Of a stretch of 64,000 nt of DNA, positions 7,460 to 61,339 are shown in pieces. The stretch's first letter is position 1. The number at the start of each line of letters is the position of its first letter. A program made the position numbers and the translations under genes. Below the pieces are notes generated by a model. It saw nothing but the letters and a program-made list of their open reading frames with translations. It was not told where the DNA came from and searched no databases. Source of the DNA: Zestosphaera sp. (GTDB lineage Archaea > Thermoproteota > Thermoprotei_A > Sulfolobales > NBVN01); contig JAVYVJ010000003.1 of the NCBI GenBank assembly GCA_038727705.1, forward strand, positions 78,035-142,034. The letters are read 5' to 3'.

Positions 7460-9019
7460 CTACTCTACAATAACTAACTTCCTGTTCTCAGCCAGTTCCC
7501 TGGCATACTTCTTCTTTATGCCGTGATAGGTCTCCAACGCCCCTATCACCAGCGCCAGCACTATGGCCACTCTAGCAGCAACAACAAGCGGGTCTGTCTT
7601 AGCGAAGACCCCGCCGACGTAGTAGTCATAGGTAGTCCCAACCAAGAGGATGAGTATATAGATCGGTGTTAGGGTCATTAGGACGTACTTAAATATGGTG
7701 GGCACCTTCATTAACGCGCCTTCGTGGAGCTCCTTCCAGAGGTTGCTCGGCTTAAAGAGGTAAACCGCCACTAGGACGTCGAAGAATCCTAGCACTACCA
7801 GCACGTAGCTACCTACCCACGTGTCAAGCTCGTCGAAGTAGGTCAGCGTCGGGTCGAGCGCTACTGGCAGACCGAGCAGGAAGTATATAACAAACACTAG
7901 GAGCGCGCCCAGCTTCCTCTTCACGCCGAGATCCTCCTCAAACATTGCGGTGAGGTAGTTGTACATAGCTATAGCGGACGTCCATCCAGCGAAGAAGAGG
8001 AGGAGGAACCACATGGTGCCGAAAACCTTTCCAACATCCCCCAACGTTGTGAAGACGTTCGGCAACGCCATGAAGGCCAAGCCAGCCGAGCCTATCTCGC
8101 CAGTCCTTATCCCCTCCATGAACCCAGTCCCTAGATAGGCGAAGGCTATAGGTATCGCGATAGTTCCCCCCAGCACTACTTCGGCAACCTCGTTCAGCGA
8201 TGTGGTCGTCAAGGCGGAGAGCGCTATATCGTCCCCCTTCCTGACGTAGGATGCGTAGTTCTGAATGATGCCCATTCCAAGGCTTAAAGTGAAGAATATT
8301 TGGCCTGCAGCAGCTAGCGATATTCGCCAGAAGTTACTGCTTAACGTGTTGAAATCCGGCTTCCAGATGTACTCAAGACCAGCTACGGAGTTCCACTCAG
8401 GTCTTATGGGTGAACCCGTTGTTATGGACCTCACCATCAGTATTACCGCGAAGATATAGAGAAGCGGCATCATTACCTTGTTGAAAGTCTCAATACCTTT
8501 TGAAACGCCTCTATATGCCGCTATGAACAGTATGACAACCGGTATGAGCCACGTAGCTAAAACCATTGGCGTGTTGGCTATGTGATTTAGGAAGAACTTC
8601 ACGGTGTCAGCGCCGTAATAGGCTCCTGTCGCGCTGTAGATGGCATACGCGGCCGTCCACCCGATCACGTGTATGTAGTATGAGTTCAGTAAGGTGGTCA
8701 CTGCGAAGGCCAGCATCCCGCCGATGACTCCGAAGATTAGGGCTGACCTCGGCTTCAGCGTCTCTCTGGACATCAGGTAAAACATGGGTCCGAGCGTTCC
8801 ATGCCCGTACTTACCACCGTATCTACCGGTAGTCCACTCAACCCACATGAGTGGTATACCCAGCAGGAGGAGCGATATGAAGTACGGTACCATGAACGCG
8901 CCCCCACCGTTGGCGGCAAGAACCCTGGGGAATCTCCAGAAATTACCCAAACCTATCGCGTTGCCGGCCATGGATAGTATTAGTCCCACTCGAGTGGCCC
9001 ACGCCTCCCTTTCACCCAT
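7460..9019 (-). CDS. Sodium-dependent amino acid / osmolyte transporter, NSS (SNF) family
   Basis: A 519-residue, twelve-helix-type inner membrane protein. The first helix has the unwound substrate/sodium site G-N-A-I-G-L-G-N-F-W-R-F-P, followed by A-N-G-G-G-A-F and P-Y, all hallmarks of the LeuT/NSS family. It uses the Na+ gradient to import amino acids or related amines. The ATG start has GGAGGCGATG upstream and a TATA box near 9085. The very short gene directly downstream is a likely accessory subunit. Substrate is unknown; methionine/alanine import is suggested only by the MetPS-like pairing. Confidence 0.93.
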   Translation of the reverse strand: MGEREAWATRVGLILSMAGNAIGLGNFWRFPRVLAANGGGAFMVPYFISLLLLGIPLMWVEWTTGRYGGKYGHGTLGPMFYLMSRETLKPRSALIFGVIGGMLAFAVTTLLNSYYIHVIGWTAAYAIYSATGAYYGADTVKFFLNHIANTPMVLATWLIPVVILFIAAYRGVSKGIETFNKVMMPLLYIFAVILMVRSITTGSPIRPEWNSVAGLEYIWKPDFNTLSSNFWRISLAAAGQIFFTLSLGMGIIQNYASYVRKGDDIALSALTTTSLNEVAEVVLGGTIAIPIAFAYLGTGFMEGIRTGEIGSAGLAFMALPNVFTTLGDVGKVFGTMWFLLLFFAGWTSAIAMYNYLTAMFEEDLGVKRKLGALLVFVIYFLLGLPVALDPTLTYFDELDTWVGSYVLVVLGFFDVLVAVYLFKPSNLWKELHEGALMKVPTIFKYVLMTLTPIYILILLVGTTYDYYVGGVFAKTDPLVVAARVAIVLALVIGALETYHGIKKKYARELAENRKLVIVE

Positions 9020-10314: not shown

Positions 10315-11100
10315 TCACTCAGGTAATGTAGGTATTATGATCTTACGTCCCTCAGCATCCACCTCGAGAACCTCCGTTCCGTAGGTCTTCCTCATTATAT
10401 CCTCACGTATTACGTCCTCCGGCCTTCCCTCAGCTACGATGGTTCCTGAACTTATGATGTAGGTTCTATCAGCGATGAGCAACGCCTCGTTGGGGTCGTG
10501 GGTAGTGAGTAGTGCCGCTCCCCCGCTTCTAGCAAATCCCCGTATCAACTTCAGCACCCTGACCCTATTACCGAGGTCCAGGTGGGAGGTAGGTTCGTCA
10601 AGAAGTAGGATCGTTGGTTCTTGAGCTAACGCTCTAGCCACCCTGGCCAACTGTCTCTCACCCCCCGATAATTCACTCACCCTCCTCCTGTAGATGTTTT
10701 GGAGTCCGACCCGAGTGATTGCCTCATGAACTCTCCTCACGTCATCCTGACTCATCACCAGCAAACCCATATGAGGGGTTCTCCCCAGTGACACATACTC
10801 GAAAAGCGTGAAAGGTAATGGTAAGTGCTCTTCCTGCGGTACGTAGGCGGTGATCCTAGCGTAGTCTCTCAGACCGTAACTAAGCAGACCCTTCCCACCA
10901 ACTTCAATCTCCCCCTCGTACCCACCAACAATCCTCGACAATATCTTCAGTAGTGTTGATTTACCGCTACCGTTAGGACCTAAGACCGCCACTACCTCTC
11001 CCTTACACATCCTTAGGCTCACGTCACGCAGGACGTATGGGGATCGCGGGCCATATCTAAAACTCAGTCTTCTGACAGACACAATCACTTCATCACCCAT
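10315..11100 (-). CDS. ABC importer ATPase, iron-siderophore / cobalamin type
   Basis: A 261-residue ATP-binding subunit. Walker A is G-P-N-G-S-G-K-S-T, the Q-loop reads V-P-Q-E-E, the signature is L-S-G-G-E-R, Walker B is I-L-L-L-D-E-P-T, and the switch histidine is in T-T-H-D. It forms the energy-coupling part of the BtuCDF/FecBCDE-type importer with the two genes upstream; its first eight bases overlap the permease gene. Corrinoid uptake would suit the corrinoid methyltransferase cluster at 30-34 kb, but the sequence does not separate B12 from iron chelates. Confidence 0.9.
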   Translation of the reverse strand: MGDEVIVSVRRLSFRYGPRSPYVLRDVSLRMCKGEVVAVLGPNGSGKSTLLKILSRIVGGYEGEIEVGGKGLLSYGLRDYARITAYVPQEEHLPLPFTLFEYVSLGRTPHMGLLVMSQDDVRRVHEAITRVGLQNIYRRRVSELSGGERQLARVARALAQEPTILLLDEPTSHLDLGNRVRVLKLIRGFARSGGAALLTTHDPNEALLIADRTYIISSGTIVAEGRPEDVIREDIMRKTYGTEVLEVDAEGRKIIIPTLPE

Positions 11101-12079
11101 GCCTCAGCCCCCTGCTTAAGATCACGATGAGTATCGGAACGCTCGCAAGCGATGTAACTATGTTCAGCGGAATCTCTGAAGGGCTTACAGTTCTAGCCAT
11201 GTCGTCACTAATCAGCAACAAGATACTCCCTATCAAGCATGATACTGGCATAGCCTTCCTGCTGTCCGCACCGACTAAACCTCTAGCTATGTGTGGCGAT
11301 ATGAGGCCAACCCAACTAACTATCCCGGAGACCGAGGTGACTGCAGAGACGCTCAACACAACCAGAGATATAGAGAGGGTCCTGACGGTAAGGGGATCTA
11401 TCCCAAGACTCTTCGACAGTTCATCTCCGAGTGAGAGGACGTTGATCCTCCAGGAAAGCATGAGAAGAACTGTGATCGACGTCAGTATCAGAGGGGATGT
11501 CCAGGTCAGCTCGTGAGACGTTACAGAAGCGAAGGAGCCCATAGTCCAGAAGACTATCTGCGGTAGTTTATTGTAGGGGTCAGCCATGTACTTCAGGTAA
11601 CCCACCCCAGCGCTGAAGAGCGCTGAGACCGCTATCCCAGCAAGAACTAGCCTCAGCACCTCATCCCCATATCTCATCAGCCTGCTGGTAGCTAGTGTGA
11701 AGGCTAGGGAGGCTGTAGCGAAGGTGAAGGAGAGCATCTGGACGCTGAGGATTGGTTGAGAGAGCAGGATCCCGAGCGCGGCTCCGAAAGCAGCGCCTTG
11801 AGAGACCCCCAGAATGTCGGGGGACGCTAAGGGATTTCTAAAGATTGCTTGCATTACAGCGCCGGCGACTCCCAGGCTGAACCCGGCTACGGTGGCGAAG
11901 AACACTCGAGAGGCTCTTAGAGGAATAACTACACTGGCTAGGCCGTCCCACCTAATTAAATCCTGAAGCGGGATCTGAAGCCTTCCGATAAAAAGAATTG
12001 ACGTTAAGATAAGAAGGGAGTCAGCGATTAGCAGGCAGATCACAACAGACCTGAATCCAAGTGCCCTCAGCCCAGCCAC
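11093..12079 (-). CDS. ABC importer permease, FecCD/BtuC family
   Basis: A 328-residue, about ten-helix membrane protein of the FecCD family. It carries the usual R-x-x-R (P-L-R-A-S-R-V) and A-x-x-G-x-x-L-Q-x-x-F-R-N-P-L-A-x-P-x-x-L-G segments near residues 50-95, and the coupling region G-L-x-x-P-H-I-A-R near 265. It overlaps the ATPase gene by eight bases and the binding-protein gene by 13, so all three are one operon. It imports an iron chelate or corrinoid across the membrane. Confidence 0.92.
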   Translation of the reverse strand: MAGLRALGFRSVVICLLIADSLLILTSILFIGRLQIPLQDLIRWDGLASVVIPLRASRVFFATVAGFSLGVAGAVMQAIFRNPLASPDILGVSQGAAFGAALGILLSQPILSVQMLSFTFATASLAFTLATSRLMRYGDEVLRLVLAGIAVSALFSAGVGYLKYMADPYNKLPQIVFWTMGSFASVTSHELTWTSPLILTSITVLLMLSWRINVLSLGDELSKSLGIDPLTVRTLSISLVVLSVSAVTSVSGIVSWVGLISPHIARGLVGADSRKAMPVSCLIGSILLLISDDMARTVSPSEIPLNIVTSLASVPILIVILSRGLRHG

Positions 12080-13245
12080 TTGATTCCCTCCAGATCGCGG
12101 GACGCCATCTCCTCAGCATCGGCTGGGTTGAGTTCGTACACCTTCGCGTAGAAGTCTACTGTAATATTTCTCACACTGACATCTGCAAACCTATCTGGAT
12201 GGATTGCCTTAGCCATGTAGATGAGGCATAACGTCCACTTAGGCCCTGGCATGTCCCAAGAATATGGGCCTCCAGGTATGGGGTACACCCTGCCATCCCT
12301 GACCGCCGCCACGTTACGCCACTCACTGCTACTGAGTACCTGCCTCACGTAGTCGACTGGCGAGGGGTCGTTGCTGTAGGTAGCGATGAACAGTACATTC
12401 GGGTTCCAGGTAATAATCTGCTCCAGACTCACCGGCTGGGCACTGCTACCCGGCAACTCCTTATTTACGGACTTACCCCCAGCCATCTCGACCAGCACAC
12501 TCTGAAGGTATCCTGCAGGAGGCGCCTTCACGACCTTATCCCTAACAGCGTCGTAATATATGAAGAGAGTGGTCGGCTTAACCGTCAAGCCCTCCAGCTT
12601 ACCCTCGACCAGCCTAGTCATGTTCCTAAAGAAATTGGTGAGTTCCGTTGCTCGAACCTCTTCCCCGAAGACCTTACCAAGCGTGGATACCGCCATGTAG
12701 AACTGATCAGGGGTCTCAACGTCAACGTAGATCACTCTTAGTCCTGCCTCTTCATACACCCGTCCTTGACTCATGAATGAGGATTTCAGTACGATTAAAT
12801 CCGGCCTAAGTTTGAGGAGCTCCTCCGCACTGGGGAAGCCGCTGAACAGCGTTTTTGTGCTTAAGTCAGGATCCCTTAACCTCAATACTGGATTTTCAGT
12901 AGAACTACTGTCAAGAGCCACGGTCTTGCGGGGCGCAGTAGCGAACATGTAAGCCGCCTCAATCAAGTATCTGGAGCCCTTCCCAACTATAGCCACCTTC
13001 TCAGGAGGCTTGCTAAGCACCACAGTCCTGTTCAACGCGTCAACAATGATTACGGGCTCTAACGAGGTGGACGGCCCTCCGGTCTGGGGCGACGTCCGCT
13101 CGGAGGTGCTGGCACTAGGGGATGTGTATTGAATGCTCGGTTGGCTGACGATCATGTAGGCAGTTAACCCAGCCATCAGGACAAGTACAAACATTGACAT
13201 TAGTACAGCGCGGTTCATAGGCACTCCACACCTCGTTGCCTGCAT
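12067..13245 (-). CDS. ABC importer substrate-binding lipoprotein-like, FepB/BtuF family
   Basis: A 392-residue surface protein. A basic N-terminus and hydrophobic helix (about residues 14-34) form a signal or anchor. A serine/threonine-rich linker to about residue 62 follows, then the two-lobed helical-backbone binding fold (V-A-I-V-G-K-G, P-S-A-E-E-L-L-K-L-R-P-D-L-I-V). The linker is typical of archaeal anchored binding proteins. A TATA-like CTTTTAAG about 25 bases upstream supports a leaderless start at 13245; the ATG at 13218, with GGAG before it, is the alternative. It delivers an iron chelate or corrinoid to the permease. Confidence 0.88.
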   Translation of the reverse strand: MQATRCGVPMNRAVLMSMFVLVLMAGLTAYMIVSQPSIQYTSPSASTSERTSPQTGGPSTSLEPVIIVDALNRTVVLSKPPEKVAIVGKGSRYLIEAAYMFATAPRKTVALDSSSTENPVLRLRDPDLSTKTLFSGFPSAEELLKLRPDLIVLKSSFMSQGRVYEEAGLRVIYVDVETPDQFYMAVSTLGKVFGEEVRATELTNFFRNMTRLVEGKLEGLTVKPTTLFIYYDAVRDKVVKAPPAGYLQSVLVEMAGGKSVNKELPGSSAQPVSLEQIITWNPNVLFIATYSNDPSPVDYVRQVLSSSEWRNVAAVRDGRVYPIPGGPYSWDMPGPKWTLCLIYMAKAIHPDRFADVSVRNITVDFYAKVYELNPADAEEMASRDLEGIKWLG

Positions 13246-29034: not shown

Positions 29035-30045
29035 TTGGTGGGTGCAGCTGTGAGGAGTAGTCATGTTGGTAGTTTCCCTCTGGAGCACAGCCTCCAGAAC
29101 GTCGGGAGGATACTGAAGGACCTCGCAACCCTAGGTATCGATGTTCCCCCATATCCCCAAATGCGGGGCTTCATTGACATCTACGTAAGCCCGCTGATGG
29201 AGGTTGGTGTGGTTAGCTTAACGGAGGGCTTCCTGCGCACCGATGTGAATGCGCTAGCAAGCCAAGATCTTAGATCGTTATGCGTGCCTGAGGCTGAGCT
29301 TGCTGTCCGCACTGTCAAAGAGTCCGGGCTTAAGTTTAAGGGTTTAAGGGCCCCCGTCACAGGGGTCTTCACCCTAGCTTCTAGGATCTACCTGCGTGCA
29401 GGCACTACAGATTTATCATCGACGGCGCTGTCTAGCAAAGATTTACTTAAGGGATTCTTCACCGAGTACGTGTCCCGCTACGTCAGCTACATGAGTTCGA
29501 TAGGTTTTGACCTCGTGTTCATTGACGAGCCGACACTAGGTCTGATGGTTGGCGCTAGGAGGAACTTATTCAATTATAGGGACGAAGACCTAATCGAGGT
29601 TCTCGAGATGGTTGCAAGGGCCGCTGGCGCGGCTGAGGTGGGTGTGCACGTGTGCGGTCGAATTCACAGGAGGATACTCGAACTCCTGACTCAAGTGAAG
29701 AAGATAAAGTACCTAAGTTTCGAGTTTCACGACAACCCAGGGAACGTTGAGGTCATAGATAGGCACTTGCTCGAGACTAATGATAAAATCATCTCGCCAG
29801 GCATCGTCAGCTCAAGGAGGCCGATCCTTGAGAGCGAGAGTGAGGTGCTGGACCTGCTTAAGAGAATCTATGAGAAGGCTGGGGGTCGGGTGGACTTAGT
29901 TTGTGGTGACTGTGGATTCGCTGGCCTGAGGGGCTCGCTGGCCAATCGGGAGGAGGAGTACAGGTTGGCGCTCTCAAAGCTTGGGAGAGTTGTAAGGGCT
30001 GTTAAGTCCTTCTGTCAGGCAGGTCTAGACATACTTGGGTCTTGA
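29035..30045 (+). CDS. Core-MetE-like zinc methyltransferase (folate-independent methionine synthase type)
   Basis: A 336-residue protein equal to only the C-terminal catalytic half of cobalamin-independent methionine synthase. S-S-H-V-G-S-F-P is at residues 8-15. The zinc ligands are in place: H205 and C207 (V-H-V-C-G), E230 (S-F-E-F-H) and C293 (G-D-C-G-F). Such core enzymes are known in archaea and anaerobic bacteria to methylate homocysteine from a methyl-corrinoid rather than from methyl-folate. It lies convergent with, and overlaps by 21 bases, an MttB-family gene, beside a corrinoid protein. I infer that it takes methyl groups from that corrinoid. Start is TTG at 29035 or GTG at 29050. 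Confidence 0.85.
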   Translation: MVGAAVRSSHVGSFPLEHSLQNVGRILKDLATLGIDVPPYPQMRGFIDIYVSPLMEVGVVSLTEGFLRTDVNALASQDLRSLCVPEAELAVRTVKESGLKFKGLRAPVTGVFTLASRIYLRAGTTDLSSTALSSKDLLKGFFTEYVSRYVSYMSSIGFDLVFIDEPTLGLMVGARRNLFNYRDEDLIEVLEMVARAAGAAEVGVHVCGRIHRRILELLTQVKKIKYLSFEFHDNPGNVEVIDRHLLETNDKIISPGIVSSRRPILESESEVLDLLKRIYEKAGGRVDLVCGDCGFAGLRGSLANREEEYRLALSKLGRVVRAVKSFCQAGLDILGS

Positions 30046-31461
30046 ACCAGTCCTTTTCCATAATTCCGTGTAGACGGCGTTCAGCCTTTCCAGCGCATCG
30101 GGACTTAACTCGTTGCGTCTCCCTTCCTTAAGAAGGCTGCCGACCACGGCGTGCGCCTCCTCATATGCGTCTCTCCCACTCCACCTAGACCTCGGAGTTG
30201 AGTCCCATACACTTGGCATGTGAACATCTTTCCTCAGGTACTTTCTAGTGTGGGGGTGCGGCAGGAAGCTCCCCCCTTCCTTCAAAACCACACCTTCTAT
30301 GACATCAAGAGCCACGTCATCAACGCCCACTCCAAAACCTCTTGACAGCCTCTTAACCACCCCACAGACCTCATTGTCAAGGATCAGCTTTTCAAGCGAC
30401 TGAACGCTCTCGAATTCAAGCATCCCGGGCCCCGAGACCACATCAAACCTTGCAGCGGCTGCTGCCAGCGCTGAATACGCCCCCTCACTCCCTGCCTGAT
30501 AGTCAACAAGCTTAGCATCACTTAAACCCATGTATGTGTGAGTGGGGAGACCCAACAACCCTGCGAGATCCCTGTATGCCAGAGACACGAGGATCGACTC
30601 AGGCGCTACTATGATTGGCGTACCATACCTTGGATGCATGAGCGTTGGCGACCCGCCGTAGATGACTGGAGCCCCTCTGGAGGAGAGCTGAGCCAGGACA
30701 AAACCGCTCAGCACTTCAGCATGATGGAGTGTCACCGCCCCCGCCACAGTGACGGGTGCCGTGGCACCCAGACCAGGCATCGAAACTATCTCCGAGGGGA
30801 CCCCTGCCCTAGCCAGATCGACCACGTTCCTTGAGGTCACCCTACTCCATGAGAGAGGAGGCGAAGGGCAGGCATCGAATATGGTGAAGGGCCTCCTCCA
30901 CGCGTCCTCCCTAACTGCCTTAAGCATTTCAAGCATGTACGGCAGGTTCTCCACGGTGAACGCTCCAGTAACTATTGGTTTTCTTGAGTACTTCAGTATT
31001 GGGTAGAGTCTAACCGCATCCCTTACCTCGATTGGCGTGTCACCAGGAACGAGGGCGGTGCTTTGCGCGTCTATGTACTCCAGACCCTCAACAACTAGTG
31101 TGAAATCCCTAAGATCCTCCAGTGTGGGGGTTCTTGGCTCCCTCGAGTCGTAGTCGAGCATCTTTATGGCTGCAGAGCCCGGGTTGAATATTAGAGCGCC
31201 TTCACCTAACGTAGCCACCCTCCTGCCGTCCCTGTCGTAAAGGTCGAACTTTTTGGGGGTATTCCTCAAAGCCTCGTTAACCAACTCCTCGGGTATTAAC
31301 ACTCTGCCGTTCCTTTCCGTCGACCCAGCGTCGAGCAACAACCCCGCAACACTGGGATCCTCGAACTTAACACCCACTCTACTCAGTAGCTCTAGTGCTC
31401 TGCTGTGTATCTCCAGCGCCTCATCCCTGTTCAAGACCGCCAGGACAGGCTTGGGCATCAT
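30025..31461 (-). CDS. MttB-family corrinoid methyltransferase without pyrrolysine
   Basis: A 478-residue TIM-barrel protein of the trimethylamine methyltransferase (MttB) superfamily, which moves a methyl group from a quaternary or tertiary amine to a corrinoid protein. Family segments include V-G-V-K-F-E-D-P near residue 29, P-G-L-G-A-T-A-P-V-T near 230, and H-P-H-T-R-K-Y-L near 418. The gene has no in-frame TAG, so it is a non-pyrrolysine member like glycine betaine methyltransferase MtgB. The substrate is unknown. Its ATG overlaps the stop of the corrinoid protein gene (4 bases), so it is second in that operon. Confidence 0.9.
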   Translation of the reverse strand: MMPKPVLAVLNRDEALEIHSRALELLSRVGVKFEDPSVAGLLLDAGSTERNGRVLIPEELVNEALRNTPKKFDLYDRDGRRVATLGEGALIFNPGSAAIKMLDYDSREPRTPTLEDLRDFTLVVEGLEYIDAQSTALVPGDTPIEVRDAVRLYPILKYSRKPIVTGAFTVENLPYMLEMLKAVREDAWRRPFTIFDACPSPPLSWSRVTSRNVVDLARAGVPSEIVSMPGLGATAPVTVAGAVTLHHAEVLSGFVLAQLSSRGAPVIYGGSPTLMHPRYGTPIIVAPESILVSLAYRDLAGLLGLPTHTYMGLSDAKLVDYQAGSEGAYSALAAAAARFDVVSGPGMLEFESVQSLEKLILDNEVCGVVKRLSRGFGVGVDDVALDVIEGVVLKEGGSFLPHPHTRKYLRKDVHMPSVWDSTPRSRWSGRDAYEEAHAVVGSLLKEGRRNELSPDALERLNAVYTELWKRTGSRPKYV

Positions 31462-32123
31462 GCGACACCCAGCAGCTCCTTAACCCTCCTCAACGCTTTA
31501 AAAGCGTCGTCACCGCTGACGTCAGCGCCTATATCCCTCACCCACTCCTCAGTCACGGGAGCTCCGCCCACAACTACCACTACCCTGTCCCTGAGACCTC
31601 TACGCCTAAGCTCTTCAACAACCCTCCCCTGCTCAACCATGGTGGTAGTCATCAGGGCCGATACGCCCACAACCCTAGCACCATGGGACTCAACAGCCTC
31701 AGCGAACCTCTCCGGAGGGACGTCAACCCCCAGATCCACGACCTCAAAGCCCTCCGCCTCGAAGAGGGCCTTGGCTATGGTTTTTCCGAGTTCGTGGATA
31801 TCGCCTCTCACTGTGCCGAAAACTGCGACAATCTTTTTGCTTGGGGAAGTTAACGGCAGTCTGGGCTTGAGAACCTTCTCGAAAGCCTGTTTAAAAGCCT
31901 CGGCCGAGGCGATTAAATCCGCTATGAAGTACTCCCCTCTCTCATACAGTGCGCCGACCTCCCTCATGGCAGGGGCTAACACCTCAGAGACTACCTGCAG
32001 TACATTAACCCCCGAGTTAACCAATCCCTCAGCACACCTCACAGCCCCTTCAGGATCTCCCCCGACTATCGCCTCATGCAATCCCCTCTTAAGATCCTCG
32101 TCGAGCATTAACGTCACCCACAT
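31458..32123 (-). CDS. Corrinoid (B12) protein, MttC/MtgC type
   Basis: A methyl carrier with the classic two-part fold: an N-terminal four-helix cap (about residues 8-90) and a Rossmann-like B12 domain. The cobalt-ligand motif reads G-D-I-H-E-L-G, followed by the expected S-x-L and G-G-A-P segments. It accepts a methyl group from the MttB-like protein encoded directly downstream. The frame is open to an ATG at 32138, but a TATA box at 32143-32153 would put transcription start near 32123, so I prefer that leaderless ATG. It is divergent from the RACo gene. Confidence 0.93.
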   Translation of the reverse strand: MWVTLMLDEDLKRGLHEAIVGGDPEGAVRCAEGLVNSGVNVLQVVSEVLAPAMREVGALYERGEYFIADLIASAEAFKQAFEKVLKPRLPLTSPSKKIVAVFGTVRGDIHELGKTIAKALFEAEGFEVVDLGVDVPPERFAEAVESHGARVVGVSALMTTTMVEQGRVVEELRRRGLRDRVVVVVGGAPVTEEWVRDIGADVSGDDAFKALRRVKELLGVA

Positions 32124-32142
32124 AGAGCTATAACGCATGCGT

Positions 32143-32153
32143 GAATTTAAAGC
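32143..32153 (-). promoter_or_regulatory. TATA box of the corrinoid protein - MttB operon
   Basis: The minus strand reads GCTTTAAATTC, with its centre about 25 bases before the ATG at 32123. This is the standard distance for a leaderless archaeal message and decides the start. Confidence 0.55.
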
Positions 32154-32227
32154 AGATACGGTGAGACCTGAAGCGGCTCCTCATCCACACTTAACCCATA
32201 GACTGTGAAGGTTAAGTTTCCTCAAGG

Positions 32228-32236
32228 CTTATATAG
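32228..32236 (+). promoter_or_regulatory. TATA box of the RACo gene
   Basis: CTTATATAG predicts transcription start near 32256-32260. It stands back to back with the corrinoid-protein promoter, so one regulator could control both sides of the 200-base gap. Confidence 0.5.
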
Positions 32237-32320
32237 TTCGGTGGATGCCCGCTGAAGGTAGGGCTGAAAAAACCTGCCGTTAGTAAGACGCTGCTTGAAC
32301 TGCTTAGGGATCGTGGTGTC

Positions 32321-34069
32321 ATGATCAGGTCTGACTGCGGCGGACGTGGCGTGTGCGGTAAGTGCGTCGTCAGGGTTACAGGTGGTGAGACATCGCAGGG
32401 TAGTCTAAGTGAGTGTAGAGTTCTAGGCGGACGAATGCTTGAAGAGGGGTTTAGACTCGCCTGCCAGGCCCGTGTGGTTAGCGATGAAGTATATGTAGAG
32501 GTTCCTGAATCGAGCCTTGTGACTTCCTACGCGTCTGCGGACACGGGTTACGAGAGACCTGTCAAGCTATCACCACTGGTGCGTAAGCGGTTTCTTAAAG
32601 TCCCTCCCCCGAGCCTGGCGGATCAGAGATCCGACTTAAGGAGGTTGCTAGGCAACGATGTGGAGGGGCTTAAGATCCCGCTAGCACTGCTTAGGGCATT
32701 ACCTAAGGTGCTTCGTGAGTGTGGTTGGGAAGTCACGGTGACAGTTAGGGATAGCGAGCTGTTGGACGTCGAGTGCGGAGACTCTGAGGGTAGGCTGTAC
32801 GGCCTGGCTGTAGACGTGGGCACATCCAGAATCGTTGCGCACCTCCTTGATTTGAGAACTGGGGAGACGTTGGCGGTGCTTTCCTCACCGAACCCGCAGC
32901 AGCTCTTCGGCTCCGACATCGTGTCGAGGATAACTCACGCGGTCAGCAACGCCGAATATCTTGAGAGGCTACGTCAGGAAGTCATTTCCTCAATTAACAC
33001 GTTGCTACTTAAGGCAGCGTCTGAGGTCGGGGTTAACCCACAACACGTCTATGAGGTCGTGGCCGTCGGAAACACCGTGATGACGCACCTGCTGTTAGGG
33101 GTAGATCCCTACAGTCTAGGGGTCGCTCCCTACGTCCCAGCATTCTCACAAGGACTCGAGTTTAAAGTTAGGGACGTTGGTATCGAGTCAAACCGCAACA
33201 GCTACGTCTACATCGCCCCAGGGATTGCCGGGTTCGTCGGCGGGGATGCTGTAGCGGGTGCTCTGGCAGTGGGTCTCGACGAGTGTGAGGAGCCCTGCAT
33301 CTTAATGGATGTGGGGACGAACACTGAGGTTCTAGTTAACAACGGTAGGGAGCTCTATGCTGCCTCAGCACCTGCAGGACCTGCTTTCGAAGGATTCGGA
33401 ACTAGGCACGGCATGAAGGCTGTTGAGGGAGCCGTCGGGAAGGTTTTCATATACCAGAGCAGTTCCTCAGGTGATTACGAGGTCTCCTACGAGGTATTGG
33501 GTGGGGGGAAACCTCAAGGCATCTGCGGCTCAGCCTACATTGACACGCTAGCGCACCTCCGCAGACATGGAGTGATAGACGAGAGGGGAAGGTTCAGGGA
33601 CGTGGGTTCTAGAAGGCTTAGAAAGGATGGGGAGCCTAGGTTCGTGATAGTGTGGGAGGATGAGTCAGGCACGGGTAAGGATATAGCAGTATATAGTAAA
33701 GACATCGCGGCACTCCTTCTGGCTAAAGCGGCGGTAGCTGCAGTAACTCATCTCACGCTCAAGAGGGCAGGACTAATGCCTGAAGATGTGGGTAGGGTGT
33801 TCGTGGCGGGCTCGTTTGGCACAAGCTTAAACCCCGATAATGCCGCCGTCATAGGACTGCTTCCTCACGTTTGGGTCGACAGAACGGTCTTCACAGGGAA
33901 CACAGCGATCAGCGGGGCAAAGTTAATTCTAAAGTCGGCTGAGGCGAGGGAGAGGGCTGAGAAGATAGCCTCTAAAACAAAATATGTGGAAGCCTCGGCG
34001 GACGAGGAATTCGCTAAGATATATGTCAAGAACTTATTCTTGACAGACCTTAACTCGCATTCCAGGTAG
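32321..34069 (+). CDS. RACo-type reductive activator of corrinoid proteins (2Fe-2S + ASKHA ATPase)
   Basis: A protein that uses ATP and a low-potential electron to return inactive Co(II) corrinoid to Co(I). The N-terminal 2Fe-2S motif is C6, C12, C15 and C48 (S-D-C-G-G-R-G-V-C-G-K-C, then L-A-C-Q). From about residue 150 come actin-like ATPase segments (V-D-V-G-T-S, D-V-G-T-N-T-E, A-G-S-F-G). The first ATG is at 32321, but this cuts off the first strands of the ferredoxin fold. The frame stays open back to 32237 with fitting residues yet has no ATG, GTG or TTG; CTG at 32264 is a candidate. Confidence 0.9.
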   Translation: MIRSDCGGRGVCGKCVVRVTGGETSQGSLSECRVLGGRMLEEGFRLACQARVVSDEVYVEVPESSLVTSYASADTGYERPVKLSPLVRKRFLKVPPPSLADQRSDLRRLLGNDVEGLKIPLALLRALPKVLRECGWEVTVTVRDSELLDVECGDSEGRLYGLAVDVGTSRIVAHLLDLRTGETLAVLSSPNPQQLFGSDIVSRITHAVSNAEYLERLRQEVISSINTLLLKAASEVGVNPQHVYEVVAVGNTVMTHLLLGVDPYSLGVAPYVPAFSQGLEFKVRDVGIESNRNSYVYIAPGIAGFVGGDAVAGALAVGLDECEEPCILMDVGTNTEVLVNNGRELYAASAPAGPAFEGFGTRHGMKAVEGAVGKVFIYQSSSSGDYEVSYEVLGGGKPQGICGSAYIDTLAHLRRHGVIDERGRFRDVGSRRLRKDGEPRFVIVWEDESGTGKDIAVYSKDIAALLLAKAAVAAVTHLTLKRAGLMPEDVGRVFVAGSFGTSLNPDNAAVIGLLPHVWVDRTVFTGNTAISGAKLILKSAEARERAEKIASKTKYVEASADEEFAKIYVKNLFLTDLNSHSR

Positions 34070-36002: not shown

Positions 36003-36818
36003 GTGTCAACGTTGGATGTAGTGGTGTTAATCAAGCCAACCCCCGACATCAATAGAGTTAAGTTCGACGTCGAGAGTGGGGTTGTCGACAGGGCCTCAGC
36101 GGAGCTTGAGATCAATCAGTTCGACCTGTATGCTGTGGAGACCGCTCTGATCATTAAGGAGACTTTAGGCGGGCTTGTGACGGCGGTGTCTATGGCGCCC
36201 CCTCAGGGCGAGAGAGCTTTAAGGGAGGCAATAGCCAGGGGGGTTGACAGGGCAATCCTCCTGACGGACAGGAGGTTCGCAGGCGCTGACACCCTAGCCA
36301 CGTCCTACACTCTGGCAGCGGCTGTGAGGAAACTGGGGAGGTATGACCTCATACTGTGCGGGGAGAAGTCAGTAGACGGGGATACTGCTCACGTGGGTCC
36401 TGAGGTCGCTGAGTACCTCGGAGTGCCTCACGCCGCCTTCGTCACTAGAGTGGTGGACGTATCGAATGAAAGGATAGTCGTTGAGTCGGATTACGGTGAC
36501 GCCTACTACCTCCTGGAGCTCAGGCTGCCAGCTCTAATATCACTCTCTAGACCTTTGTTCTTCAGTGACAGAGCCGTAGAGCCCAGGACCCCTAAGCTGA
36601 GCGACGTACTCAGAGCGAGGAAGACTAAGGTTGAGGTCTGGAACGCCGACCACCTGATAGGCTTAGCGGACCCAGAGGGCTTCGGATTGGCCGGCTCGGC
36701 CACGAGGGTAGTGAGGGCGTTTAGCGCACTTGAGAGAGGCAGGAACCCAGTCATGGTGGTAGGTGATGAGGGGGTTGACCGCATTATAGAGGCTCTCAAA
36801 TCTAGGGGGTTGATTTAA
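36003..36818 (+). CDS. etfB: Electron transfer flavoprotein, beta subunit
   Basis: A 271-residue subunit that, with EtfA, carries electrons on flavins. Family signatures are V-V-L-I-K-P-T-P-D near the start, N-Q-F-D-L-Y-A-V-E near 39, and L-I-L-C-G-E-K-S-V-D-G-D near 118. It heads a tight operon with etfA (2-base gap) and a GlcD-type dehydrogenase, the order of the bifurcating lactate dehydrogenase LctBCD. Whether this ETF bifurcates cannot be decided from motifs alone. Start is a GTG. Confidence 0.93.
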   Translation: MSTLDVVVLIKPTPDINRVKFDVESGVVDRASAELEINQFDLYAVETALIIKETLGGLVTAVSMAPPQGERALREAIARGVDRAILLTDRRFAGADTLATSYTLAAAVRKLGRYDLILCGEKSVDGDTAHVGPEVAEYLGVPHAAFVTRVVDVSNERIVVESDYGDAYYLLELRLPALISLSRPLFFSDRAVEPRTPKLSDVLRARKTKVEVWNADHLIGLADPEGFGLAGSATRVVRAFSALERGRNPVMVVGDEGVDRIIEALKSRGLI

Positions 36819-36820
36819 CG

Positions 36821-37813
36821 TTGTGGAGCGGAGTCCTCATCTACGCTGAGAACTACGGCAAGGGCATTAAACCATCGACTTTCGAATTGCTAGGTAAGGC
36901 TAGTGAGTTGAGGTCTAGGTTAGGAGGCCTAATCCACTCCGTAGTTCTGGCATCAGAAGGGGCTGAGAGGCTGGCTGAGGAGTTAATCTCCTACGGGTCA
37001 GAGAAGGTGCTGACTTACAGAGTTCCGGAGGAACTGCTCCCAAACCAGCTTGCACACAGAGACGCGGTGGTTGACGCAATCGAGACTGTTAAGCCAAAGC
37101 TAGTCCTCATCAGCGCGACCCAGTGGGGAAGAGCTTTAGGCCCTAGAGTGGCTGCACGTCTTAAGACAGGGATAACCGCGGACTGCCTCGACGTGTACGT
37201 TGACGAGGGCGGCGATATCGTTCAGGTCAGACCGGCCTTCACCGGGAATATCATAGCCCATATAAAGACCCTGAGAAACCCGATCATAGCAACAGTGAGG
37301 CCTAAGGTATTCTCAATGCCAAAGCCCAACCGAGGTAGGGAAGGCGAGATTCTCCGCAGGGAGCTGAGCACTTTCGGAAGCGACGTTTCAGGGGTGAAGG
37401 TTTTGGGGATAGCTAGGGAGAAGTCTGCTAGGCTCTCAGAAGCTGAGGTAATAGTCTCCGTCGGTAAAGGTCTGAGGGGTAGAGAGGACTTGAAACTCTT
37501 CGAGGAACTCGCCAGAGTGTTAGGGGCGCAGATTGCATGTAGCAGACCCCTCGTTGACGCAGGGTGGATGGAGAGGGACAGGCAGGTAGGTTTCAGCGGG
37601 AATGTTGTGAGGCCCAGAGTGTACATAGCGTGTGGAATATCGGGCGCTCCACAGCACTTGACCGGCATGAAGGACTCCGAGTACATCATAGCGATCAACA
37701 AAGACCCTTCGGCCCCCATATCTAGGCATAGTGATCTGTTCGTAATTGGTGATATCTATGAAATCGCGCCGAAGTTGATGAAAAGGATTAATGAGCTCAG
37801 GGATAAGCTATAG
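36821..37813 (+). CDS. etfA: Electron transfer flavoprotein, alpha subunit
   Basis: A 330-residue FAD-binding subunit. The C-terminal FAD site is clear: S-G-A-P-Q-H-L-T-G-M and I-A-I-N-K-D-P-S-A-P-I, then S-D-L-F-V-I-G-D. There is no N-terminal ferredoxin domain, unlike LctC of Acetobacterium. The start is a TTG two bases after the etfB stop, preceded by a G-rich ribosome site. Its stop overlaps the GTG of the dehydrogenase gene by one base. Confidence 0.94.
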   Translation: MWSGVLIYAENYGKGIKPSTFELLGKASELRSRLGGLIHSVVLASEGAERLAEELISYGSEKVLTYRVPEELLPNQLAHRDAVVDAIETVKPKLVLISATQWGRALGPRVAARLKTGITADCLDVYVDEGGDIVQVRPAFTGNIIAHIKTLRNPIIATVRPKVFSMPKPNRGREGEILRRELSTFGSDVSGVKVLGIAREKSARLSEAEVIVSVGKGLRGREDLKLFEELARVLGAQIACSRPLVDAGWMERDRQVGFSGNVVRPRVYIACGISGAPQHLTGMKDSEYIIAINKDPSAPISRHSDLFVIGDIYEIAPKLMKRINELRDKL

Positions 37814-39207
37814 TGGTGTGTAGAATGACGTTCTCGAAGAGTTTGCTGGCGGAGCTTGCGGAGGTAGTTGGAAGCAGGTGGCTGGTTACTGAGAAGAGCA
37901 TTTTAGAGAGGTACCTGCAGGATGAGACCGTCCCAAGCGTCCGTCCGAAGGCTTCCGAAGAGGTTGTGGTTGTTAAGCCGGGATCTACTGAAGAGGTTGC
38001 GGAGGTCCTTAAAGTGGCGAACAAGTACAAGATCCCGGTATATCCTAGGGGCGGTGGCACAGGCCTCGTAGGAGGCGCCGTGCCGACGAAGCCCGGCATG
38101 GTGCTTTCCCTTGAGAGGCTTGATAGGATAGACGTGGACGCCGAGAATATGGTGGCTGAGGCCGAAGCTGGGGTAACCTTAGGCAGGCTCCTTGAGGAGG
38201 CTGAGAAGCATGATCTAATGTTCCCTCCACACCCTGGTGATGAGGGGGCATTCGTAGGGGGCCTAGTGGCCTGCAACGCCGGCGGCTCCAGGGCTGTGAG
38301 AACCGGGATCCTCAGGAACTACGTGCTAGGACTTGAGGTAGTCCTACCCACTGGAACCATACTTAAAATCGGTGGCAAGACCTTAAAGAACAACATGGGG
38401 CTCAACCTTGCTCACTTATTCATAGGGTGTGAGGGAGTGCTCGGCGTAATAACTAAGGCATGGCTGAGGCTCTACCCGAGGTGGAGGTACACAGCAACCC
38501 TCATAACACCATTCAACGAAAGCGCCGCAGCATTCAGAACGGCTAGGAAGATATTGGCAGCTGGTGTAGTCCCCCTCGCCATGGAGTACTTCGACAGAAG
38601 GGTTATCGAGGCTTCTGCAAAACACCTCGGGGTCCCGTGGCCTGTGACTGACGGACAGTACTTTCTGATGATTATACTGGCTGAAGCGCTGGAGGACATG
38701 CTGTACGTCCAGCTCGACCACATGAATAATATCGCAAGGGAGGAGGGAGGGCTCGAATCCTTCATAGCGCAGAGGAACGACGAGCAGAAACAGCTCCTCA
38801 GGATTAGGAGTGAGATATTCCCGGCACTGAAGAATGACACACACGACATCTTAGACACGACTGTTCCAATAGGGGCTGTGGAGAGGTTTATAGACGGCAT
38901 CGCACGCATTGAAAGCAAGCACGGCATCTGGCTGCCAGTCTTCGGACATGTGGGGGACGGCAACCTCCACGTCCACGTCCTCAACTACCCGAACTCTACG
39001 GTGGAGGAATTGGAGAGGGTCGTTGAGGAGGTCTACGAGACGGCGGTTGCGTTGGGTGGGACGATAACAGGCGAACATGGTGTAGGGTACGTCAGGAGGA
39101 AGTACGTTCGCAGGATACTTGGTGACACGTGGGTTGAGACCATGTCCGCCTTGAAGAGGACGCTTGACCCAAACAACATTCTCAACCCCGATAAAGTGCT
39201 ACCTTAA
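37813..39207 (+). CDS. FAD-linked 2-hydroxyacid dehydrogenase (GlcD/LctD family)
   Basis: A 464-residue flavoprotein that oxidises D-lactate, glycolate or a similar 2-hydroxyacid. The PP-loop FAD segment V-Y-P-R-G-G-G-T-G-L is near 76, the C-terminal metal/active-site motif G-H-V-G-D-G-N-L-H near 379, and G-E-H-G-V-G near 420. It follows etfB-etfA in one operon, so electrons probably pass to ETF rather than to the membrane. The last nine bases overlap the convergent lysA gene. Start is GTG; the ATG four codons in is the alternative. Confidence 0.92.
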   Translation: MVCRMTFSKSLLAELAEVVGSRWLVTEKSILERYLQDETVPSVRPKASEEVVVVKPGSTEEVAEVLKVANKYKIPVYPRGGGTGLVGGAVPTKPGMVLSLERLDRIDVDAENMVAEAEAGVTLGRLLEEAEKHDLMFPPHPGDEGAFVGGLVACNAGGSRAVRTGILRNYVLGLEVVLPTGTILKIGGKTLKNNMGLNLAHLFIGCEGVLGVITKAWLRLYPRWRYTATLITPFNESAAAFRTARKILAAGVVPLAMEYFDRRVIEASAKHLGVPWPVTDGQYFLMIILAEALEDMLYVQLDHMNNIAREEGGLESFIAQRNDEQKQLLRIRSEIFPALKNDTHDILDTTVPIGAVERFIDGIARIESKHGIWLPVFGHVGDGNLHVHVLNYPNSTVEELERVVEEVYETAVALGGTITGEHGVGYVRRKYVRRILGDTWVETMSALKRTLDPNNILNPDKVLP

Positions 39208-52606: not shown

Positions 52607-53200
52607 ATGTGGTGTAAGGTTTATGAGGTTATGGAGCAATACTTAAACTTGGGTGGTGTGTTGCACAGCGCTTCTGGAGCTCCTCTTAAGGGCCTGGTAT
52701 GCAGTGATTACTTCTTTCTCTGCATAGGGACTGAGTTGAGGAGGGATGATGCTGCCGGTCTACGTTTCTGCGACATTCTTGAGTCAGGCGGGTTCCCTAA
52801 GGAAAGGCTCGTAAAGTGTGAGTTCGGTCTTGAGAATTGCGCGTCAGTTGTTGAGGAGGCGCTGGTCAGGAAGGCGGTCTTAGTCGATGCCATGATATCT
52901 CTCAAGGGGGAGGACGAGAACGTTGACTACATACTTACGGACTTGAAGTCAGTCGACGATGAGAGAATGTTCCTAGTCACAACGCACTCTATCCCCGTTA
53001 AGTTCGTAGTAGAGGTGCTGAGGAGTGAAGGATTACTGAGGGATGTTCTTGTCCTGGGCATTGTAGCGAGGGATCTTAGTCTGGGTGAGGGGCTGAGTGA
53101 GAGGGTTCAGGAGGTGGTGGAGGGCCTCGCTAGGATGGTTCTTGATCTGTGGAGGGAATGTTCTGAGGCAGGCCGTGATGCCGAGAGCGGGTCACGCTAA
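52607..53200 (+). CDS. [NiFe] hydrogenase maturation protease (HycI/HyaD family)
   Basis: A 197-residue endopeptidase that clips the C-terminus of the hydrogenase large subunit after nickel insertion. C-I-G-T-E-L-R-R-D-D-A-A-G (about 37-49) holds the first nickel-sensing acid, V-L-V-D-A supplies the second, and T-T-H-S near 126 gives the histidine. An N-terminal extension of about 25 residues precedes the usual start. It is convergent with the last gene of the hydrogenase operon, with a 9-base overlap of ends. The ATG at 52631 is an alternative start. Confidence 0.87.
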   Translation: MWCKVYEVMEQYLNLGGVLHSASGAPLKGLVCSDYFFLCIGTELRRDDAAGLRFCDILESGGFPKERLVKCEFGLENCASVVEEALVRKAVLVDAMISLKGEDENVDYILTDLKSVDDERMFLVTTHSIPVKFVVEVLRSEGLLRDVLVLGIVARDLSLGEGLSERVQEVVEGLARMVLDLWRECSEAGRDAESGSR

Positions 53201-54196
53201 CATTAACTGATTCAAGACTGTCGAAATGACTATGGCTAGCACTGCTGGGAGCAACGCATACCTGACTAGAGTCTTCACTCCCTGCTCCACTCTGAACCTC
53301 CCGAAGGATGACTTGATCAGCGTTATGATGGTGAGGACTGCGAGGTACTTGATCACGACCGCAACGATTCCTGCGACTGGATTCCCGATGAAGGGGTGTG
53401 GTCCTCCAAGGAGGAGGTACGTAACCACTAGAGATAATGCGTAAAGGTCGGCGTCGTGGAGGAAGTTGAATATTGCGAGGAGCGGGCCGCTGAACTCTGT
53501 TGCAACGCCTGCTATCAGCTCCTGCTCGGCCTCAGGTATGTTGAACGGCGGTAGCATGAGCTTTGACTGGAGAGCTATTAGGGCAGCCACCGTAGCCAGG
53601 AACATCGGGACCGCTGTCAGCGGGTTAGTCCATAACCCCCATGCTGCATCCACCGCAGCCTTGACCGAGAAGGCGGGCTCTGCCACCCGGTGAGAGAGAT
53701 AGGCAGGCGTCAGGACAGCGGTGAAGAAGGCGGGTTCAGCAACTGCAAGTATGGTTGTGAGTCTTGAGACCCCCTTGACTGCGAAGGGATTCAGCAACGA
53801 CGTAGCCATCACGAGTTCTGAGATCGCAACCCACACGCCCAAAAGGTAGACCAGGAGTATCACGTCGAATTTAGCTGCTATGCTGAGCGGGGCTATAGGT
53901 AGTAGGAGGAGTGAGGCCACCACCGCTCCCAACCCCAGGCAACCGAAGGCACGGGCTACTGAGATGCTACCATACTTATAGTTAGGCTCTGTCTTAACTA
54001 GTAGGAGTTTAATGAAGTCCGCGAAGGGCTGCAGGACTCCGATAGGGCCCACATAGGAGGGCCCCATCCTCCTCTGAGATCTGGCGAACAGTTTTCTGAC
54101 CCACCACTCACTAAACATGGACATAACCCACAGCCCCAGGAGACCGGGGAACAGCAGGACCTCCACCAGAAGCACTAAAATAGTTGTCACATCCAC
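53192..54196 (-). CDS. mbhM: Membrane-bound hydrogenase subunit M (NuoH-like)
   Basis: A 334-residue, eight-helix protein of the NuoH/complex I subunit 1 family, which anchors the peripheral arm and joins it to the ion-pumping module. S-Q-R-R-M-G-P-S-Y-V-G-P near residue 40, and F-N-I-P-E-A-E-Q-E-L near 218, are the two conserved loops. It is the last gene of the 13-gene hydrogenase operon, detached from the other hydrogenase-module genes, which lie at the beginning. Confidence 0.94.
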   Translation of the reverse strand: MDVTTILVLLVEVLLFPGLLGLWVMSMFSEWWVRKLFARSQRRMGPSYVGPIGVLQPFADFIKLLLVKTEPNYKYGSISVARAFGCLGLGAVVASLLLLPIAPLSIAAKFDVILLVYLLGVWVAISELVMATSLLNPFAVKGVSRLTTILAVAEPAFFTAVLTPAYLSHRVAEPAFSVKAAVDAAWGLWTNPLTAVPMFLATVAALIALQSKLMLPPFNIPEAEQELIAGVATEFSGPLLAIFNFLHDADLYALSLVVTYLLLGGPHPFIGNPVAGIVAVVIKYLAVLTIITLIKSSFGRFRVEQGVKTLVRYALLPAVLAIVISTVLNQLMLA

Positions 54197-54202
54197 CGCT
54201 CA

Positions 54203-54559
54203 TCACCTCATGCTAATGAAGTATATGAGTGCCATCAGTGAGAGCGCACCGATATACGTAATCATGTAGACACTCCACTCATTCATCACTCCACTATGCA
54301 TCCTGTCTCTCAGATAATTGTAGAGTCTGCGTCCAGCGCCCCACACGAGCCCCCAGAAGAGGTTACGAACCGGTACGTCGAGAGATCTGACCACGGTCTT
54401 CGGCTCACCTCCTATGTAGGCCTCGCCGTACTCCTCACTGCTCGGCCTGTCCCTCCTGGATAAAGTTGCGTAGGCCAGGTACATCGTGGCCGCGGTCAAC
54501 ACCAAAGCACTGCTTAGTAGGAGCGTGGCTGACGCGGGATCCAGTATGAGAACTTCCAT
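54203..54559 (-). CDS. Membrane-bound hydrogenase subunit I-like
   Basis: A 118-residue protein with one N-terminal membrane helix, a loop with E-E-Y-G-E-A-Y-I-G-G-E-P, an amphipathic stretch, and a C-terminal helix after S-G-V-M-N-E-W-S-V-Y. This ending resembles the lateral-helix tail of NuoL/antiporter subunits that MbhI supplies as a separate protein. It lies between the MnhD-like and NuoH-like genes, where MbhI belongs functionally. The identification rests on position and layout more than on motifs. Confidence 0.65.
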   Translation of the reverse strand: MEVLILDPASATLLLSSALVLTAATMYLAYATLSRRDRPSSEEYGEAYIGGEPKTVVRSLDVPVRNLFWGLVWGAGRRLYNYLRDRMHSGVMNEWSVYMITYIGALSLMALIYFISMR

Positions 54560-54565
54560 TCCTAC

Positions 54566-56161
54566 TCACCCACCCCAGAATAAATAGTATCCCTGAATCC
54601 AGTAGTTGTAGATGCCCTGCAGGGAAGTAGCCCCGTTGACTACCGTCTGAAGCCAGTCAATCAGAACTCCTGAGAGGAGTCCAGTGGCTATGCACGCGGC
54701 TGCAAGTGTCAGGAGGACAGCAATCGGTATTAGGCCAACCTTGGGAAGGTCCTGAACTTTAGACGTCTTGAAGAGTACAGCGTAAAGTAGCCTTACGTAA
54801 CCTAGTAGCGAGACTGCCGAGATAGCGTTGATGAGGACCGCTATGTAGGGCATCCCAGCCTCCATGAAAGATGAGTAGAGGAGATACTTACTGAAGAAGC
54901 CGCCGAAGGGTGGAACCCCAAGTAACTGCAATACCCCTACCATCAGGACGAATGCCAGCAACGGATTCCTCCTCACAAGACCTCCGAGTTCATCAAGCCT
55001 CCTGCTGCCCCCAGCCATGAATATGACAACGCCGGAGGCGAGGAAGAGGAGGGACTTACCTAAACTGTGATTTATGAGGTGATAGAGGGCACCTGAAAGC
55101 CCGTCAATGTAGGCCGGTGTGCCGGGAGCGGCTACAGTGGTCATCCCTATTGAGAGTCCTGCGAGCACTAACCCTAGGTGGCTGACGGTTGAGTAGGCTA
55201 GCAGTCTCTTTATATCGTCTTGGACCGCCATCATAAATGCCCCTACAAACCCCGATGCGATCCCCAAGACTAGGGTGGTCAGTAACATCATGTCCCTCAA
55301 GCCCACTACCGCCGAGTAAGGGTTAAATATAGTGTACATGAATCTGAAGACCGCATAGACCCCCACGTTAACCACAAGTCCTGAGAGAGCTGCCGAGACT
55401 GGTGTGGGAGCTTCCGGGTGCGCATCAGGCAACCAGAAGTGGTTGGGGAATATCGCTGACTTAAATGTGAAGGTCCAGAGTGAGAGTGCTAGAGCCACTG
55501 CGGTGGCGGCATAGACCTGGCCATAATATGGTCCTGAAGCTGTGTTGTAGCCGAACGTCACTTTATTAATGAGATCCGCCATGTTGAGTGTTCCGAAAGA
55601 CGCGTAGATGAATACAAGTCCTATAAAGTAGAGGGTGGTTGCTACAGCACCGAAGAGTCCGTACTTGATGGCCGCCTCAACGGCCTCGGGCTTGCTCCTG
55701 TAGAACCCTACTAACGCGTACGCACTTATAGACATGACCTCGAGCATTACGAACAGGTTGAACGCGTCGCCAGTGTATATGCACCCCAGCATCCCCACCT
55801 CCAGACCTAGGAGTAATGTGTAATAGTAGGGTGCGGCCTTAAGGTCTCTGACGTACCAGGCACTGTAGACAGTTATCAAGAACATCACCGAGGTGGTGAG
55901 AAGTGCCAGGAGTGCGTTCACGTAATCGACCTCATAGCTTATCCCCATCGGAGGCCACCAGCCGCCGAACGGATACGCCTTAACACCTCCCTCAAGGACT
56001 AGGTGGAAATTGTATGTAGCAGTGATCAACGCGTAAAGCGACGCAAGCGACGCGTAGATGTGGAAGAATCTGACGTTCTTAACTAACATTCCTAGGAGTG
56101 GAAGTACGAATGCAAGCCCTATGAGGGACGGAACCAGCATACCCACGCTCAGGACGTTCAC
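54566..56161 (-). CDS. mbhH: Antiporter/NuoN-like subunit (MrpD, MbhH)
   Basis: A 531-residue, about fourteen-helix ion-translocating subunit. Family residues are visible: the glutamate in M-L-E-V-M-S-I-S-A-Y-A-L-V near 140, the lysine in the F-K-S-A-I-F-P-N-H-F-W-L-P-D-A-H-P-E-A-P-T-P-V-S-A segment near 230, and the lysine/histidine pairs at H-L-I-N-H-S-L-G-K near 365. It forms the proton (or sodium) channel of the Mrp module. Confidence 0.95.
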   Translation of the reverse strand: MNVLSVGMLVPSLIGLAFVLPLLGMLVKNVRFFHIYASLASLYALITATYNFHLVLEGGVKAYPFGGWWPPMGISYEVDYVNALLALLTTSVMFLITVYSAWYVRDLKAAPYYYTLLLGLEVGMLGCIYTGDAFNLFVMLEVMSISAYALVGFYRSKPEAVEAAIKYGLFGAVATTLYFIGLVFIYASFGTLNMADLINKVTFGYNTASGPYYGQVYAATAVALALSLWTFTFKSAIFPNHFWLPDAHPEAPTPVSAALSGLVVNVGVYAVFRFMYTIFNPYSAVVGLRDMMLLTTLVLGIASGFVGAFMMAVQDDIKRLLAYSTVSHLGLVLAGLSIGMTTVAAPGTPAYIDGLSGALYHLINHSLGKSLLFLASGVVIFMAGGSRRLDELGGLVRRNPLLAFVLMVGVLQLLGVPPFGGFFSKYLLYSSFMEAGMPYIAVLINAISAVSLLGYVRLLYAVLFKTSKVQDLPKVGLIPIAVLLTLAAACIATGLLSGVLIDWLQTVVNGATSLQGIYNYWIQGYYLFWGG

Positions 56162-56172
56162 CCACCATCACC

Positions 56173-56688
56173 TCAGTCGAATATCACCCGAGCGAACCTC
56201 TCAAAAACCTCCGAGACCTGTCTCCTTGCTTCGCCCGGTTCTGTCGTAGTGGTGTCTATCCAGTGTACATAGAACACCTTCTTACTCCGGTCAACCTCCA
56301 CAACGACAGTGCCAGGGGTGTTTGTTATCGAGTTAGCTATGGTGAGCATGGAATAGTCGCTAGCTACATCGTAGGGGATCTTGACGATGCCGGGGTTTAT
56401 GGGCATCCTCGGGTGGAGTATTCGCTTCATCACATCCACGTGAGCCTTCACCTCATCCACGAAGAAGTACCTGAATGCGTACGTAATAAGCCATGCAAGC
56501 CTCTGTGGCTGAAGCAGTTTGCGGGGATCCTTCACAGTCAAGTTGGCGGTTATCACAGACGTAACTAGAGCTACTACCACCCCAGTAGTTACGTCATACA
56601 GCGACGTGGAACCCGAGAAGATCACGTAGACCACGAAGACCGGGAAGAAGACCCCAACCACCTTACCTACGTAATCCATCGAACTCAC
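56173..56688 (-). CDS. mbhA: Mrp antiporter subunit E-like (MbhA)
   Basis: A 171-residue subunit. Two or three N-terminal membrane helices are followed by a soluble alpha/beta domain (residues about 75-171) with N-S-I-T-N-T-P-G-T and H-W-I-D, the MnhE signatures. It overlaps the preceding MnhC-like gene by four bases. In Thermococcus this gene comes first in the mbh operon; here it has moved behind MbhG. Confidence 0.92.
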   Translation of the reverse strand: MSSMDYVGKVVGVFFPVFVVYVIFSGSTSLYDVTTGVVVALVTSVITANLTVKDPRKLLQPQRLAWLITYAFRYFFVDEVKAHVDVMKRILHPRMPINPGIVKIPYDVASDYSMLTIANSITNTPGTVVVEVDRSKKVFYVHWIDTTTTEPGEARRQVSEVFERFARVIFD

Positions 56689-58576: not shown

Positions 58577-58578
58577 GC

Positions 58579-61320: not shown

Positions 61321-61339
61321 GATGCTTAAACCTCCCTTC

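Follow-up and report, generated by a model that had tools for sequence, protein, structure and literature searches.

A probable corrinoid-dependent methionine-synthesis module with an exchangeable methyl donor in an archaeon related to Zestosphaera

We describe a four-gene cluster (29035–34069) that is probably a methionine-synthesis module, in which a core-MetE-like zinc methyltransferase (MET) with a swappable methyl donor would here be charged by an MttB-superfamily methyltransferase from a scavenged methyl compound. The cluster lies in a 64,000-nucleotide stretch (the window, C3:78035–142034) of an archaeal genome of 1.59 Mb in 4 contigs, 98.6% complete, whose named neighbours in the genome collection are Zestosphaera tikiterensis and Desulfurococcaceae. 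The data are metagenome-assembled genomes, and genome incompleteness weakens the absences reported below.

The cluster begins with MET (336 aa, 29035–30045, + strand), which was assigned to Meth_synt_2 in Pfam with 24.7 bits against a cut-off of 21. It is followed by the MttB-superfamily methyltransferase (478 aa, 30025–31461, − strand; PF06253, E = 7.5e-75), a stand-alone corrinoid protein, COR (226 aa, 31458–32138, − strand; B12-binding 3e-28, B12-binding_2 1e-18), and a RACo-type reductive corrinoid activator (582 aa counted from its ATG, 32321–34069, + strand; Pfam RACo C-terminal domain 1e-74, middle domain 2e-55, linker and 2Fe-2S). All four are complete open reading frames with the expected domains, as the preliminary description had proposed. 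COR and MttB share 4 bp and are probably co-transcribed, a prediction from this overlap, while MET and MttB are convergent with a 21 bp overlap. A 182-bp intergenic region (32139–32320) separates the divergent COR and RACo, and a TATA-like cttatatag directed towards RACo was noted in it by eye at about 32228–32236. COR carries a DIHELG cobalt-ligand motif (DxHxxG) and a GVSAL motif. The identical layout occurs in three sibling genomes (L018, L019 and L020), hence the arrangement is not due to chance. An Rfam search of the window gave zero matches, and a promoter and terminator scan stayed at or below chance level with models that are bacterial and uninformative for archaea.

MET consists of a single MetE C-terminal-type domain (Meth_synt_2 alone) and does not possess the N-terminal folate domain. 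The top PDB matches of its AlphaFold model (pLDDT 92.4) were MetE structures (E 5.7e-13, TM 0.70 by query length), including the core-type MetE 3RPD (TM 0.69/0.68), and matches to coenzyme M methyltransferases (4AY7) and most URO-D structures were weaker (E ~2e-9). As the model matches MetE structures best, the weak Pfam assignment is upheld. The counterparts of the E. coli MetE zinc ligands H641, C643, E665 and C726 are H205, C207, E230 and C293; the first three are kept in 59 of 59 MET proteins and C293 in all 58 that reach that position. Two homocysteine residues are also conserved, D164 (MetE D599) in every MET protein and S13 (MetE S433) in every one covering it. The equivalent of MetE Glu484 varies in the alignment of 59 MET proteins; MesB is likewise without a conserved equivalent (PMC7857596).

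These features bear out the core-MetE-like identity given in the preliminary description through both fold and zinc residues, but MET falls outside the two known Mes families that could be tested, MesA and MesC. MesC was rejected on the model NF004712 (55 bits against a cut-off of 387), on the tree and on the zinc residues. We took NF004712 as the MesC model because Methanosarcina acetivorans was the sole control above its cut-off. The MesC-like proteins of the phylum share 24–27% identity with MET and fall outside the MET clade, and the position of C643 is a cysteine in all MET proteins but a histidine in 17 of 20 MesC-like proteins. MesA was likewise rejected, with NF002119 (PRK00957, which we take to be the MesA model) reaching 47 bits against a cut-off of 258 and MtrH missing from the genome. 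A split-MetE subunit was rejected as the genome has no Meth_synt_1 partner, and DUF1852 (MesX, which MesD needs along with oxygen) had no match among the cluster neighbours scanned. MET is therefore predicted, from models, tree and residues that set it apart from MesA and MesC, to form an undescribed family with a clade of its own. Distant MET homologues with all zinc ligands kept were also observed in Bathyarchaeota and marine Nitrososphaerales (L073–L088), in most cases without a COR, RACo, MtrH or MttB counterpart in the vicinity.

Comparative genomics makes it very probable that MET serves as the methionine synthase of the cell, which the corrinoid protein would charge. Profile searches of the genome found no MetE-N/Meth_synt_1 (the split MetE partner), PF02574 (MetH/BHMT), MtrH or MTHFR. 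Thus MetE and MetH are missing elsewhere in the genome, as the preliminary description's reading called for, and so is MtrH, which it had named as evidence that would count against that reading. A PF01717 search of the same genome also found nothing, MET itself included, and this absence was not used as evidence because the search misses this divergent family. SAH hydrolase is present, hence homocysteine is made. Across 229 genomes of the class, MET was found in 57 and split MetE (by its N-terminal-type domain) in 125, and the two occurred together in 3 genomes against 31 expected (Fisher P = 1.2e-19, not phylogenetically corrected and inflated by shared ancestry). The two also alternate within two families (f1 and f2). 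Approximately 50 of the 229 genomes have neither, which suggests that many members of the class are methionine auxotrophs and that the pathway need not be essential.

The methyl donor, by comparison, varies among relatives. We compared MET neighbourhoods around 52 named loci and relatives, where MET was repeatedly accompanied by COR and RACo. Among 36 Thermoprotei MET loci, some clipped by contig ends, 25 had COR, 23 had RACo and 19 had a donor enzyme. In many lineages MtrH stands beside MET, COR and RACo, often with an MTHFR-like protein (by Pfam on L025). MttB takes the donor place in the window's clade, in L109 and in L041/L110, the latter being the third case of MET–MttB linkage. A URO-D-type donor was identified in L044 (by Pfam) and L045 (by the start of its sequence), and in L043, on the same contig as that of G007, MET and COR occur with both MtrH and a URO-D-type protein. 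L109 belongs to another family of the class and has an independent, collinear MET-RACo-COR-MttB operon with a MET only 39% identical to that of the window; together with the sibling genomes, it shows the conserved co-occurrence of the four genes for which the preliminary description had suggested a search. Within 41 relatives, MtrH (n = 9) and MttB (n = 5) are disjoint and jointly cover 14 of the 15 MET genomes. In the class as a whole, all 16 MttB genomes carry MET (naive P = 3.6e-11, kinship ignored), and in the window's own genome MttB is the sole donor module found adjoining MET. Donor exclusion is not strict, as L102 has MttB, COR and MtrH in one genome, and the MttB loci of the Ignisphaera family are COR-MttB-permease units located away from MET. 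These loci indicate that MttB can feed other acceptors too.

The MttB of the cluster scores 252 bits against PF06253 (cut-off 25) and is 29–30% identical to MtgB (9YCE) and MttB (7XCL). A pyrrolysine (trimethylamine) MttB was rejected, as there is no in-frame stop, the pyrrolysine column holds a leucine, as in MtgB, and TIGR02369 reached 302 bits against 525. The genes around related MttB loci point to an imported, amino-acid-like methylated compound as the candidate substrate. Amino-acid permeases adjoin the Ignisphaera-family MttB, and an SSF symporter is present in L102. Furthermore, a conserved 348-aa protein with no Pfam match forms a block with DUF917 and two Asp/Glu/hydantoin racemases that adjoins the MttB clusters of two siblings (L018:1458–4970, L020:5261–8788), there with an Opp-type transporter, and L019 carries one of these racemases. 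A second family has the block as well, next to COR and MttB in L101 (13066–16217), with 59–79% identity between the two families; the block may process the MttB substrate. In the window, an SNF-family sodium symporter about 20 kb away (7460–9019, − strand) is a possible importer of the substrate. SNF-family relatives carry amino acids or betaine.

The activator possesses 2Fe-2S, linker, middle and ASKHA domains. Its score against the AcsV equivalog (416, cut-off 800) did not reach the cut-off, hence the activator is RACo-like rather than AcsV. The 2Fe-2S domain seems to start upstream of the first ATG, with in-frame KKPAVSKTLLELLRDRGV before MIRSDCGG. The frame is open from 32237, and no ATG, GTG or TTG start was found between 32237 and 32321 (+ strand); the extension would reflect either an unusual start or an indel within an A6 run. 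Other genes of the window touch on cobamide and electron supply. A BtuCDF/FecCD-type ABC importer (10315–13245, − strand; permease, ATPase and binding protein), for which no BtuCDF equivalog cut-off was reached, possibly takes up cobamide for COR. An operon of EtfB, EtfA and a GlcD-like FAD oxidase (36003–39207, + strand) resembles bifurcating lactate/2-hydroxyacid dehydrogenases and could supply low-potential electrons. Membrane-bound hydrogenase/Mrp-type antiporter genes (NADHdh, Proton_antipo_M, MnhB and the 49-kDa subunit) occupy 53192–63736 (− strand), with HypF nearby.

We computed the genes, folds, residues, co-occurrence and absences, and infer the transfer steps, the substrate and the physiological role. 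MttB would demethylate a scavenged compound, probably either a quaternary amine or an N-methylated molecule resembling an amino acid, and load the methyl group onto the Co(I) of COR. MET would then pass the methyl from methyl-COR to zinc-bound homocysteine, supplied through SAH hydrolase, to yield methionine, and RACo would reduce the cobalt of COR again whenever it has been oxidised to Co(II). Each step is in keeping with the known chemistry of MtgB/MttB, MesA/MesB and RACo. MET, COR and RACo stay constant across the order, with the donor swapped between MtrH in many lineages (using methyl-pterin), MttB here and a URO-D-type protein in a few, and MttB would take over from the pterin route in this genome.

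Three other explanations were weighed against this one. MET could be a methionine synthase that draws its main methyl supply from another route, such as a pterin methyltransferase or another corrinoid protein, with MttB and COR mainly demethylating a nutrient. The Ignisphaera-type MttB, which occurs with COR and a permease far from MET, and the MttB-COR-MtrH set of L102 are in line with this; but MtrH and MTHFR, the pterin routes searched for, are absent from the genome, a single COR-RACo pair adjoins MET and is common to MttB, and the MET–MttB linkage repeats in L109 and L041, so that we regard this explanation as unlikely, though the strongest of the three. MET might instead methylate another thiol, coenzyme M-like or other, in the manner of MtaA/MtbA or Mlp proteins, which would make the cluster catabolic. 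This is improbable in our view, as MetE structures match about three orders of magnitude better in score than the coenzyme M methyltransferases (4AY7) and URO-D proteins that share the fold, and although the Glu484 equivalent varies, the position of the fourth MetE zinc ligand is occupied in MET by an invariant glutamate. Moreover, exclusion with split MetE is unexpected for a catabolic enzyme.

An orphan MttB or MtrH with a corrinoid protein in non-methanogenic archaea is usually read as energy-yielding methylotrophy, and on that reading the acceptor would be something other than MET and MET a chance neighbour. MttB systems are classically catabolic, and the Brockarchaeota MttB was interpreted in this way (PMC8065059). 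Within the class, however, MttB never occurs without MET, and the MET-COR-RACo linkage repeats with three different donor enzymes, which leaves methylotrophy, by a narrow step, the least probable of these explanations. The methionine-synthesis module with MET as acceptor is the reading we retain.

Parts of this module have precedents. Folate-independent core methionine synthases are known (PMC7857596, PMC7005905), and Price et al. raised the possibility, as speculation, that certain MesC paralogues rely on corrinoid proteins dedicated to particular substrates (PMC7857596). Like MET as read here, MesA, MesB and MesC have the C-terminal MetE-like domain alone, the zinc residues, homocysteine residues (in MET the counterparts of S433 and D599), and a methyl supply from a corrinoid rather than folate. 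MesA is known only from methanogens, and the predicted donors of MesA–C are MtrA or CoFeSP, whereas MET is accompanied by a donor enzyme and a dedicated COR that has a RACo of its own. In the MtgBCDE system of Ruegeria and Phaeobacter, MttB-type demethylation and methionine synthesis meet, as they would here, at one common corrinoid protein (PMC12478193). The acceptor in that system is MtgE, which resembles BHMT/MetH modules, and methyl groups are exchanged with folate via MtgD; here a core MetE would accept the methyl group, in a genome where the searches detected neither PF02574 nor MtrH nor MTHFR. The MttB/MtgB amine systems of methanogens and acetogens similarly combine an MttB-family enzyme, a cognate corrinoid protein and a reductive activator, but their acceptor is a coenzyme M or tetrahydrofolate methyltransferase in place of a MetE-like enzyme. 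The Brockarchaeota MttB is without a known acceptor (PMC8065059).

An archaeal parallel is the CoP-MtrH pair found in Bathyarchaeia and Ca. Methanomethylicus, which likewise joins a corrinoid protein with a methyltransferase. In Ca. Methanomethylicus a MetE homologue adjoins the pair, and a possible anabolic role was considered, in passages that include no MttB, activator or family definition (PMC7886697). In contrast to that account, the set described here is kept over many lineages, MtrH and MttB alternate, and split MetE is excluded. A literature search on Zestosphaera methyltransferases and on MttB or methionine in Thermoprotei, covering few subscription papers and preprints, found no prior description. 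The preliminary description had suggested that the combination may be undescribed, which is only partly so. New here are the MET family, the mutual exclusion of MET and split MetE, and the exchange of donor enzymes, for which we found no earlier account; the suggestion is tempered by the three precedents (PMC12478193, PMC7857596, PMC7886697).

Our results offer a possible answer to how methionine is made in the many Desulfurococcales-type archaea that lack MetE and MetH, and define a testable enzyme family with modular methyl supply. On balance, and with less assurance than for the locus itself, we favour MET as a fifth corrinoid-dependent core synthase family, widespread among anaerobic Thermoprotei and related to proteins of Bathyarchaeia and Nitrososphaeria, that combines a fixed COR-RACo pair with interchangeable MtrH, MttB or URO-D-type donors and would allow the window's lineage to make methionine directly from a methylated compound of its environment, without a pterin or folate step. 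A methionine synthase running on scavenged methyl groups would tie core biosynthesis to the excretions of neighbours. It would also provide a non-catabolic explanation for MttB and MtrH in non-methanogens, and, if true, the orphan copies of these enzymes in such archaea would serve anabolism and would not point to an energy metabolism based on methylotrophy.
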